64,000 nt of DNA from Cyclobacterium plantarum (GTDB lineage: Bacteria; Bacteroidota; Bacteroidia; Cytophagales; Cyclobacteriaceae). Position 1 is the first letter of the stretch, and every line of letters starts with the position of its first letter. Positions 5,398-37,155 of this stretch are shown here, piece by piece. Made by a program: the position numbers and the translations under genes. The notes beneath the pieces are model-generated. The model made no database searches and had not been told where the DNA came from. It saw only the letters and a list, made by a program, of their open reading frames with translations. The DNA is taken from contig NZ_JAANYN010000003.1 of the NCBI RefSeq assembly GCF_011290685.1, positions 417,341 to 481,340 on the forward strand, read 5' to 3'.

Positions 5398-6150
5398 TCA
5401 CCCTCCCCAATTTTGGCTAAAGCCGGGGTCCATGAAATCTCATTTTAGAGAATGGGCTAAAGCCACATTCCTATTGAGGGATGTTTGCCATTGATTTATA
5501 GGTTTTAATTTTAGGATCAATTCGCTTTTATCAATTGCCTCCTGCTTCAGCTGGAGGCAATTAATTGGGTTATCAGCATCATTGGCTTTAGCCAAAATTT
5601 TTCCCGGAAGGCCCTTGTGCCCCAAAACCTCCCCAATTTTGGCTAAAGCCGGGGTCCATGAAATCTCATTCTAGGGATGGGGCTAAAGCCGCCATCCTAT
5701 TGAGGAAAGAATGCCAATCAATTATTACTCAATTGCCCACTGCTTCAGCTGTGGGCAATAAAGAGGCACTGCACCTATTGGCTTTAGCCAAATCCTATAT
5801 CGGTAAGGTATTAGTTTCCGAATTTCCCAAATCCTTCCCCAGTTTTGGCTGAAGCCGGGATTTATTAACTCTCATTCTAAGGATGGGGCTAAAGCCGCGA
5901 TCCTATTGAAAGGAGACAGGTCATTGATAATGGGTTAAAAATAGAAAACCGGACTCCTATTACTCAATTGCCCACTGCTTCAGCTGTGGGTTATAAAGGG
6001 GTACTGCACCTATTGGCTTTAGCCAAATCCTATATCGATAAGGTATTAATTTCCAAATTTCCCCAAATCTCTCCCCAATTTTGTCTAAAGCCGGGAGGTT
6101 GGGAAAACGATCTATATGGTATGAGGCTATATCCTTTTGAGGTGAGATTG
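5398..6150. repeat. Tandem array (3.5 units) of a ~220 bp hairpin-rich repeat
   Basis: Units run at about 5398-5629, 5630-5833, 5834-6065 and a partial one at 6066-6150. Each full unit has the same ordered blocks: CAATTTTGGCTAAAGCCGGG; then GGGCTAAAGCC plus ATCCTATTGA; then a hairpin AATTGCCnnn-TGCTTCAGCT-nnnGGCAA; then TTGGCTTTAGCCAAA, which is the inverse of the first block. The hairpin arms co-vary: TCC/GGA in the first unit, CAC/GTG in the second. The third unit has lost part of its right arm. Short reading frames across the array differ between units and look incidental. A fifth copy lies at 7690-7945. Not a CRISPR: the units are long, there are no spacers, and the units are contiguous. 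Function unknown. Confidence 0.85.
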
Positions 6151-6158
6151 TTTTTTTT

Positions 6159-7370
6159 TTATTGTATGTATTTATCCTTTAGTTTCATCATTACAATAAC
6201 AGGGTTGTCCTCAGGCTCAATTTTTCCAACACCGGGGATTTCTATGGTTTTGCCTTCATTGCTGTGCCAGGGTAGGACAATATCTACCAGGTAATTTTCG
6301 TGCAAAACCTCATGGTTAACAGCATAATAATAAGAACTTAGGTAGACCTTTTCCGGATAATTGGTTAAATCATTTATGATATCCTTTGTATGGAAGGTCT
6401 GATTGGTTTTTTTGAAGTGAAAATGATGGTGCAATTGGTTTCTACCGGCCGTTTTGAAATAGTAAGTAAACGCCGAAATATTCGAATCGTAAATATTTAG
6501 GACCGGGAAAGATGCCAGACCCTTCGTTTGATCACCTGCATACAAATATTCCTGTTGTTCTTTGGTGCTTTTTAGTCCTATGGAATGGTCTATACCATAA
6601 TTACCGAAATCAACTGTCAAAATCGGAAGCGCTTCCATATTTAAAAGCTGGTAAAAAGTGTTGTTATACAATAGCGAAATAAAAATTTCTCCCTGCTTGT
6701 TGGTGGTAAAACTTTCGGAATTTGGGGAAAACGTCGATCCTTCGGTTATTATATGCTTATCAAAAAGCGAATGTTGAAGTTTTCCTCCCTTCACAACTAA
6801 TATGTCTGCATTGGTAATTTTGCTTCCTATGGTATTTTCCTGCTGCTGTGCGGAAAAATAGTAAATATCGTTATCCTTTTCTTTTCTCATCGTATTGGCA
6901 AATGGAAGGGATATCTCCTGTTCATTCAAATATTCAAAGGTTATGTTTTCGTATTGAATAATGCGTGATTTCTCCCCTCTGTAATCAAACACTTCAATGT
7001 ATTCCTCCTCCTCATCCACTAAAACCTGATACAATATGCCGTATTCATCGGGACCTGATCCGTGCTTACTGAGTTTGGAAAGAAATTTGCCTTTCTTATT
7101 AAATACAAAAACGGCCTTTAAATCTCTGTCAATTGCGTAAATATACTTATTCTTGATAATGATCTCCCGTGTACGCACCATCATGCTATTTTCATTGGTC
7201 TCAAGAGGAATATAAGTTACCGAATCCACCAATGCTGACAAGAGAATGGACTGATCTGCCTCAGGGGGATTTATGGTCAAAACATTATCTGCTAATGGCT
7301 CTTTCTCCCCGCATCCTGTCCAGAAAAAGAGAGGCATAACGATGAGTATTAAATGAAGGAAACTTTTCAT
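6159..7370 (-). CDS. 6-bladed beta-propeller lipoprotein
   Basis: Predicted outer-membrane or periplasmic lipoprotein, 403 residues, with signal LILIVMPLFFWTGC. After it comes the sequence typical of the Bacteroidota '6-bladed beta-propeller' family: SVTYIPLETNENSMM, then IIIKNKYIYAIDRDLKAVFVFNKKG and a blade motif G-x-GPDEY around residue 100. The family is common in gut and marine Bacteroidota, often near SusCD-like systems, but has no proven activity. The gene stands alone, with the repeat array 9 bases beyond its stop and a relic of another propeller gene plus a further repeat unit on its upstream side. This suggests a site of repeated insertion or loss. No strong promoter motif was found upstream (7371-7530). 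Confidence 0.85.
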   Translation of the reverse strand: MKSFLHLILIVMPLFFWTGCGEKEPLADNVLTINPPEADQSILLSALVDSVTYIPLETNENSMMVRTREIIIKNKYIYAIDRDLKAVFVFNKKGKFLSKLSKHGSGPDEYGILYQVLVDEEEEYIEVFDYRGEKSRIIQYENITFEYLNEQEISLPFANTMRKEKDNDIYYFSAQQQENTIGSKITNADILVVKGGKLQHSLFDKHIITEGSTFSPNSESFTTNKQGEIFISLLYNNTFYQLLNMEALPILTVDFGNYGIDHSIGLKSTKEQQEYLYAGDQTKGLASFPVLNIYDSNISAFTYYFKTAGRNQLHHHFHFKKTNQTFHTKDIINDLTNYPEKVYLSSYYYAVNHEVLHENYLVDIVLPWHSNEGKTIEIPGVGKIEPEDNPVIVMMKLKDKYIQ

Positions 7371-7530
7371 TGGAAAAATATTTGAGAAAAATCAGATCAT
7401 ATTTAGAGAGTCAATCTTATAGTATTGAGAAGTAATTTTAGTTAATTATTCTCCCCGAAGTCAAATATTAGATGAATGAATGCTTTTGGCTACCCTAAGT
7501 AATCTCCATAGGTTTCAATTTAATTCTGTT

Positions 7531-7692
7531 TTATCTTAAATCCAACTTTATCAGACTAAGTTCTTTGCCAATAAATGCCGCTGCTTGCAAAATTTGGTTT
7601 TCCTCCTCTATGGCAATGGACCTTACCAGATGATCCAAAGTGAGTTTTTTGACGGGATTACCCTTTCAGTCGAATACATATGCGATAGCCTA
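7531..7692 (-). pseudogene. Relic of the C-terminal blade of a second 6-bladed beta-propeller protein
   Basis: Reading the - strand from about 7692 to the stop at 7531 gives AIAYVFD, then a TGA stop, then KGNPVKKLTLDHLVRS, then IAIEEENQILQAAAF, then IGKELSLIKLDLR. This is the usual last-blade pattern of TolB-like 6-bladed propeller lipoproteins (VFDxxGNPxKxxxLD...IAIDEENxxIY). There is no start codon, one internal stop, and the similarity ends where the dispersed repeat begins at about 7690. It differs from the C-terminus of the intact propeller next door, so it is not a simple partial duplication of it. Assignment to the family is by eye. Confidence 0.55.
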
Positions 7693-7945
7693 TTTTTGGC
7701 TAAAGCCAGGAAAAATTGTATTTAATTCTATGGAATGGGCTAAAGCCGCATTCCTATTGAGGGATGTTAGCCATTGATTTTTTGGTTTTTATTTTAGGAT
7801 CAATTCTCTTTTATCAATTGCCTCCTGCTTCAGCTGGAGGCAATTAATTGGGTTATTAGCATCATTGGCTTTTGAAATCCGATTAATAGGATGGAGCTAT
7901 ATCCTATTGAGGGAAAAATCTTCCTAACGCTCAAACCTTATATTC
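7690..7945. repeat. Fifth, isolated copy of the ~220 bp hairpin repeat
   Basis: It carries TTTTGGCTAAAGCC, GGGCTAAAGCCGC-ATTCCTATTGAGGG, and the hairpin TTGCCTCC-TGCTTCAGCT-GGAGGCAA, which is the TCC/GGA form as in the first unit of the array at 5398. The last inverse block is degraded (TTGGCTTTTGAAATCC). It sits between the propeller relic and the 3' end of the TonB receptor gene. Confidence 0.8.
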
Positions 7946-36989: not shown

Positions 36990-37155
36990 CACAACCCCCA
37001 GTGCCGTAGGCACGACCGATATGGGTTTAAACCATAAGCTGCTGATAGACCGAAAGGAGAGATCCGTACCTACGGCACTTAAGCTTCAGGGACCGGCCTG
37101 TACCCATGGGCTGAACCCCATGGTTACCAGATTGCCCGCTCCTAACGGAGCTTTT
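36990..37155. repeat. Palindromic intergenic element (GTGCCGTAGGCAC type)
   Basis: Inverted arms AGTGCCGTAGGCACG (37000-37014) and CGTACCTACGGCACT (37065-37079) pair with one mismatch. Between and after them lie smaller palindromes: GGGTTTAAACC, CCATGGGCTGAACCCCATGG, and GCTCC-TAAC-GGAGC (37138-37151) followed by TTTT. This is the pattern of a degenerate REP/MITE-like element. Only one copy is in the window. Bases 36730-36989 and 37156-37368 hold no gene I can support; a CCCCTT/AAGGGG mini-hairpin sits near 37305. Confidence 0.55.

Follow-up and report, generated by a model that had tools for sequence, protein, structure and literature searches.

The closest described counterparts of the repeats reported here are the REP and BIME elements that accompany class 2 TnpA-REP (RAYT) transposases. 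In the available sections of the sources that describe them (Nunvar 2010, PMC2817692; Quentin 2018, PMC6006769; PMC8266576), these are short intergenic hairpins whose stems change in pairs, which carry a conserved tetranucleotide-like foot on the 5′ side and occur in many copies, alone, as inverted pairs or in clusters where two types alternate, and the Y1 gene is flanked by inverted cognate elements, with one repeat type per transposase clade. The accessible part of Nunvar 2010 (PMC2817692) places qualifying RAYTs in gammaproteobacteria only and describes BIMEs next to rayt genes as well as palindromes that persist while their sequence changes; GTAG serves as a guide in the corresponding part of PMC8266576. 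An open question of REP biology is how a selfish IS200-type transposase becomes a gene of low copy number with numerous short hairpins in its keeping.

A second relevant group is TnpA-Y1 subclass 1.2, which the available text of Quentin 2018 (PMC6006769) characterizes by the signature Y---Q--HH and by low copy number in Bacteroidetes and Cyanobacteria, with the entry 'no' for REP in its Table 1. As the subclass is described there as IS200-related, without IS properties and without REPs, its role is left blank. The program rules given in the same sections were derived from REPs with GTAG or GTGG feet and run on genomes with TnpA-REP, so that elements with a TCAAT foot would escape them. Searches of a literature set that leaves out most subscription titles found nothing on Cyclobacterium together with repeats, transposases and palindromes, only Quentin 2018 for subclass 1.2 with HuH and transposase, and, among the matches listed, Quentin 2018 and PMC8266576 for TnpAREP, REP sequences or Y1 transposases from 2018 on. 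Among the matches listed for the GGCTTTAGCC string, the sole REP paper concerns gammaproteobacteria.

The repeats of Cyclobacterium plantarum share all of the REP/BIME features named above and differ in three respects. Their foot is TCAAT rather than the GT[AG]G of the REPs in the sources as available, each element has a second small palindrome, GGCTTTAGCC, 22-25 nt on, and the associated protein, unlike class 2 RAYTs, falls below the cut-off of the RAYT model and bears the Y---Q--HH signature of class 1. A sequence-only reading of this DNA had recognized no named family with this plan, which is correct for the foot and the transposase class and incorrect for the plan itself, which is that of REP/BIME. 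The hairpin of the Haemophilus influenzae GTAG REP, as listed in the accessible part of Nunvar 2010 (Table 1, PMC2817692), holds the same GGCTTTAGCC core and differs in its GTAG foot and its gammaproteobacterial RAYT; the common core may be convergent.

Anatomy of the repeat units

The window, a stretch of 64,000 nucleotides (G000:C31:417341-481340) from the 6.17-Mb genome of C. plantarum (G000), contains a unit of ~220 bp that is an inverted pair of ~67-nt elements, the four blocks of the unit being two related elements back to back. From the foot onward, each element consists of TCAAT, a hairpin with GCTTTAGC or GGCTTTAGCC in its loop, a spacer of 22-25 nt and GGCTTTAGCCAAA. Two types are distinguished, with consensus TCAATTGCCnnnTGCTTYAGCTnnnGGCAAT for the C type and TCAATAGGAATGyGGCTTTAGCCCATTCC for the B type, and both also occur in short forms without the inner GCTTTAGC. 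In the window there are 11 matches to GGCTNNAGCC, all at 5415-7747 (shuffle mean 0.88), and four to TGCTTCAGCT (0.08 in shuffles). The features of the locus are listed below in window coordinates.

5412-5477, minus strand: B-type element of unit 1, with foot TCAATAGG at 5477 and the AAA end at 5412
5531-5596, plus strand: C-type element of unit 1, stem CCTCC/GGAGG, single-stranded DNA fold z -4.3
5638-5703, minus strand: B-type element of unit 2, stem GGATGG/CCATCC
5729-5792, plus strand: C-type element of unit 2, stem CCCAC/GTGGG, fold z -3.6
5844-5909, minus strand: B-type element of unit 3, stem GGATCG/CCATCC with one position unpaired
5964-6027, plus strand: C-type element of unit 3, stem CCCAC/GTGGG, outer stem with one mismatch (T-T) and one G-T, fold z -2.3
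6080-6142, minus strand: truncated copy, a degenerate B-type element alone without the central hairpin
6159-7370, minus strand: six-bladed beta-propeller gene (PF17170), between both repeat clusters
7695-7760, minus strand: B-type element of unit 5
7814-7877, plus strand: C-type element of unit 5, stem CCTCC/GGAGG, end block decayed, fold z -2.9
7886-7912, minus strand: degenerate B-type hairpin past unit 5

The sequence bears out the blocks, their arrangement and the paired change in the stem that the sequence-only reading described. Its five copies correspond to five places, of which only three hold complete units (5412-5596, 5638-5792 and 5844-6027), one being truncated without a hairpin and the fifth, at 7695-7877, having a decayed right block; the loop that it saw conserved throughout is kept in all four copies that have the hairpin. 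The paired stems are CCTCC/GGAGG at 5540 and 7820 and CCCAC/GTGGG at 5740, the latter pair recurring at 5975, a site that had been omitted. The ends of unit 1 form a perfect 16-bp terminal inverted repeat, AATTTTGGCTAAAGCC. The enclosed gene was rightly named a propeller, with a match to the six-bladed beta-propeller family PF17170 (E 2e-34), and together with its flanking repeat clusters it is bordered by genes for an FG-GAP repeat protein and a TonB receptor. It is taken as a neighbour of the repeats and not as their cargo. A search of the window against Rfam returned no family at its gathering score.

Stem covariation, foot and element edges

The repeat is real and under structural constraint, and its stem changes are mostly paired. 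In 25 unique long hairpins from C. plantarum, 143 of 150 cells are paired over the six inner pairs, the only ones counted in this set and the next because the search pattern itself specified foot and loop, and departures from the commonest pair are paired in 33 cases and unpaired in 7. With relatives included, 88 unique hairpins have 471 of 528 cells paired (mean 322 and maximum 354 in 1000 shuffles) and 130 double-sided changes (shuffle mean 41, maximum 62), with 154 paired and 57 unpaired departures. The selection on the fold proposed in the sequence-only reading is upheld by the excess of paired over unpaired departures in both sets. Shifting the partners by 1-3 positions leaves 35-43% of cells paired, and this slid-partner control failed at three of six offsets for the own-genome set and at all six for its C-type subset. 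Variation at a single pair, 9-24, extends over TA (36), CG (23), AT (9) and GC (1). The 42 unique B hairpins have 227 of 252 cells paired (shuffle maximum 212) and 19 double changes (shuffle mean 4.8, maximum 12), and their departures are 35 paired versus 25 unpaired. As the copies are related to one another, none of these counts is a number of independent events.

The foot is close to invariant, with T100 C97 A100 A99 T99 percent in 90 unique hairpins that were picked by loop and pairing only from the array regions of this genome and 14 regions of relatives. The GGCTTTAGCC block was found for 113 of 120 hairpins and starts 22-25 nt past the stem in 111 of these 113. In an alignment of 13 dispersed copies, conservation jumps at the A before TCAAT and stops past GGCTTTAGCCAAA, with most positions outside these edges at 19-41% pairwise identity and a few at 47-85%; four of the copies are from this genome and nine from G001, G002 and G012, some have a B-type element nearby, two (L248 and L250) seem to represent a single orthologous site, and all were chosen by hairpin and block, which makes the alignment informative at the edges only. 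Elements of both the C and the B type also occur singly, bounded by the foot and the AAA end. Folding of eight elements as single-stranded DNA gave -10.9 to -16.0 kcal/mol, with z scores of -2.3 to -4.3 for five C-type elements and of -1.3 to -1.9, weakly better than shuffles, for three of the B type. On the TCAAT strand, G-T mismatches outnumber C-A mismatches by 38 to 11 in the first stem type and by 16 to 5 in the B type, as would be expected if that strand folds. This favours a single-strand hairpin over a cruciform of double-stranded DNA.

A Y1 transposase gene within the same repeats

Six Y1_Tnp matches are found in the C. plantarum genome. The gene of an intact 146-aa Y1 (HUH) transposase is located at L061:11903-12343, minus strand, on contig C36, which is not the contig of the window, and sits in an array of the same repeats with a C-type element at L061:11799 (+) on one side and a B-type element at L061:12500 (-) on the other. 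The protein contains the motifs DHCHC, FEWQ and YIRNQEEHH, matches Y1_Tnp with 96 bits, passes the IS200/IS605 model NF033573 (63.2 bits, cut-off 55) and fails the NCBI model for REP-associated tyrosine transposases, NF047646 (29.4 bits, cut-off 80). The REP-associated (RAYT/IS200-like) transposase that the sequence-only reading had suggested looking for is thus present as an IS200-like gene inside an array of the repeat, and the NCBI model does not class its product as a RAYT.

The protein has the signature of TnpA-Y1 subclass 1.2 (Y---Q--HH, HUH, WQ), which is also the signature of 78 of the 81 proteins in the tree described below, the assignment being by signature and not by the clustering of Quentin 2018. 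As in that subclass (Quentin 2018, PMC6006769, sections available), Y---Q--HH, WQ and DH-x-H occur in a protein of about 148 aa encoded at low copy in Bacteroidetes; unlike the subclass as reported there (Table 1, REP 'no'), defined cognate repeats accompany one clade here, and the flanks of other clades are rich in hairpins. Likeness to the IS200/IS605 elements IS608 and ISDra2 extends to passage of NF033573, to the IS608 transposase as best solved relative (E 8e-5) and to the hairpins beside the gene. In contrast to such elements, the genome has one full-length gene of the clade plus remnants, many hairpins without a gene and no near-identical gene copies, the next relatives being 33-36% identical. 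The remnants are gene fragments that adjoin repeats at C32 and, via a match to the C32 site, at C36. A fragment of the C-terminus of the cognate transposase lies beside a C-type element (L069 near 1094-1168), with a similar stretch in the C36 array (G000:C36:47345-47688); fragments and repeats are paired as if gene and repeats had travelled together.

Association of the core palindrome with one transposase clade

Flanks of up to 1.5 kb were scanned for 74 Y1 matches. The core palindrome is present in the flanks of 16 rows (15 loci), all at least 53.8% identical to the C36 protein over the aligned part, and absent in 58 rows, only one of which, L033 at 57.6%, lies above that identity. At loci from named genomes the core is found in 15 of 15 with at least 55% identity, three of which repeat earlier loci and four of which have one core match, and in none of the eight with at most 48%, of which L221 has 107 bp of downstream flank. 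In a tree of 81 proteins, built by a quick method and with many weakly supported inner forks, the core flanks 23 of the 25 genes of one clade and none of the 56 others, which amounts to three changes on the tree compared with a mean of 20 in shuffles. The tree was drawn from 97 proteins, leaving out six duplicate loci and ten proteins outside 125-230 aa, four of the latter, L110, L111, L115 and L219, being flanked by the core. The two clade members without the core are L033 and L221, the latter covered for 107 bp of its downstream flank, and others have a single core match (e.g., L040, L046, L214, L217, L218 and L228). The clade is hosted by Cyclobacterium, Algoriphagus, Lunatibacter, Flavobacterium, Daejeonella and MAGs labelled Chitinophagaceae and Chlorobiota, and TCAAT or a near variant stands beside many, not all, of its cores, with none seen in L220, for example.

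The other Y1 clades have other hairpins in their flanks, with sequences often common within a clade. At 54 loci the median is three perfect stems of at least 7 bp within 700 bp on each side, versus none in 36 window controls, which are mostly coding, and none in 56 flanks shuffled with a simple routine. The clade of the TCAAT repeats has a median of only one perfect stem because its stems are imperfect. A second hairpin family, formed by GCTCCGTAGGAGC and GTGCCGTAGGCAC, surrounds another subclass 1.2 gene on C5 (L072:719-1520). Blast locates this family at 18 places in the genome, including three at the C5 gene and one in the window at 37064-37154.

Proposed function and alternative explanations

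Repeats that have this anatomy, that change their stems mostly in pairs, lie between genes in the array regions, are dispersed at unrelated sites and share their core with one transposase clade and no other are probably REP/BIME-like DNA hairpins, and the Y1 (HUH) transposase with the signature of TnpA-Y1 subclass 1.2 is probably cognate to them. The best reading is a REP/BIME-like system that has a non-GTAG foot and belongs with a class 1 transposase. The tests place it outside the strict REP/RAYT systems, given its foot and the failed protein model, and outside the ordinary IS200/IS605 elements. We infer that the transposase recognizes and cuts the elements and accounts for their mobility and spread. 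By analogy with GTAG in REPs and with the guide tetranucleotides of IS200/IS605, it would bind the single-stranded hairpin of the TCAAT strand with the foot as guide. It would cut near the hairpin and, when active, could spread or reshuffle elements on single-stranded DNA, and tandem arrays could grow through recombination between units.

The sequence-only reading had left the fold as either RNA or cruciform, and the single-strand hairpin described above fits better than the latter. A role in RNA, with the hairpins acting as terminators or mRNA stabilizers and the transposase merely tending to lie among them, is compatible with the intergenic position of the elements, with the frequency of G-T pairs on one strand, as in RNA, and with the repeats on both sides of the propeller gene. 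It fits poorly with the inverted arrangement of the units, where any one transcript would contain an element in sense orientation next to an antisense partner, although covariation is seen in both types; a terminator role also leaves the clade-specific link to a transposase across genera unexplained, and the window has no Rfam match, so that an RNA function is considered unlikely. Movement as MITE-like units by an unrelated DDE transposase, with the Y1 gene as a passenger, is judged more improbable still. The perfect 16-bp terminal inverted repeat of unit 1 (AATTTTGGCTAAAGCC) would suit such units, as would the 348-bp insert that holds one element and has inverted ends of 11 bp, with AATTCAAT repeated at its site. 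The single elements bounded by foot and AAA and the clade-specific association with Y1 genes speak against it, as does the result that no target duplication was seen by eye at the window units, and covarying hairpins with a conserved foot are not required of a MITE. The presence of a repeat cluster between most neighbouring genes in C37-type arrays recalls the attC-like recombination sites of a gene-cassette array. The attC core differs from the TCAAT and GCTTTAGC blocks that are the conserved parts here, neighbouring genes are separated by several elements rather than one, and several species share similar gene clusters, which makes this explanation barely plausible.

The evidence tilts slightly towards REP systems having arisen more than once, with a class 1 (IS200-like) lineage, TnpA-Y1 subclass 1.2, having undergone domestication in Bacteroidota together with superfamilies of cognate hairpins of its own; one would be that of the TCAAT foot and the GCTTTAGC loop, and sister clades in the same genomes have other hairpins. 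If this holds, subclass 1.2 would represent a living link from IS200 elements to REP/RAYT systems. With foot, loop and covarying stem all defined and a particular transposase clade beside them, recognition of TCAAT hairpins becomes directly testable, as for RAYTs on GTAG hairpins, and annotators gain a recognizable repeat family in Cyclobacterium and its relatives.

Distribution and insertion sites

The long form TCAATWN{7,8}GCTTYAGC occurs 58 times in C. plantarum, with none for the reversed control, and is present in all 13 genomes of the family searched, 12 from Cyclobacterium and one from a sister genus, where the reversed control gave one match in G009 and none elsewhere. Six genomes from other families of the order have at most one long-form match each. 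Within 19 regions chosen for their repeats, none of 335 GGCTWWAGCC cores lies inside an ORF of at least 200 aa, such ORFs covering 56% of the sequence. Cognate genes accompany 21 to 61 elements in five of the 12 Cyclobacterium genomes, and in the other seven, with 3 to 35 elements, no cognate gene was detected among the Y1 matches that were placed, which comprise all but a few weak ones. This persistence of elements argues against tight dependence of the repeats on the transposase, and a strict link of element number to transposase presence, considered as a candidate, is unsupported. Searches of phages with unit 1 and of plasmids with 1.9 kb around the transposase gave no match.

Empty sites were sought in relatives for four sites with C-type elements (C11:897.9k, C15:14.4k, C32:511.9k and C33:434.7k), the first two with detailed alignment. 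One clean empty site was obtained, for C11:897.9k in G001 (C. jeungdonense), where the insert is not the element alone and comprises 348 bp around it (L066:865-1212), with 11-bp inverted ends ATTGAATTAGG/CCTAATTCAAT and AATTCAAT repeated at the site; further partial copies of this insert are found in both genomes. About 390 bp at C15:14.4k are absent, with ends that are not clean, in G003, G004 (Cyclobacterium sp. SYSU L10401), G005 and G006; the genome handle G008 denotes C. lianum. At the units of the window, inspection by eye revealed no target duplication.

Similar arrays lie among tandem paralogous genes in six genomes (L062, L235, L237, L238, L240 and L245), and the repeats may favour tandem duplication there. 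One of the paralogues is a DUF4221 protein and the others have no Pfam match, and phmmer detected no kinship between these paralogues and the propeller of the window. Two related small genes, L061:6765-7229, which has no Pfam match, and L063:1952-2416, are also located within repeat clusters and appear PIN-like by eye.
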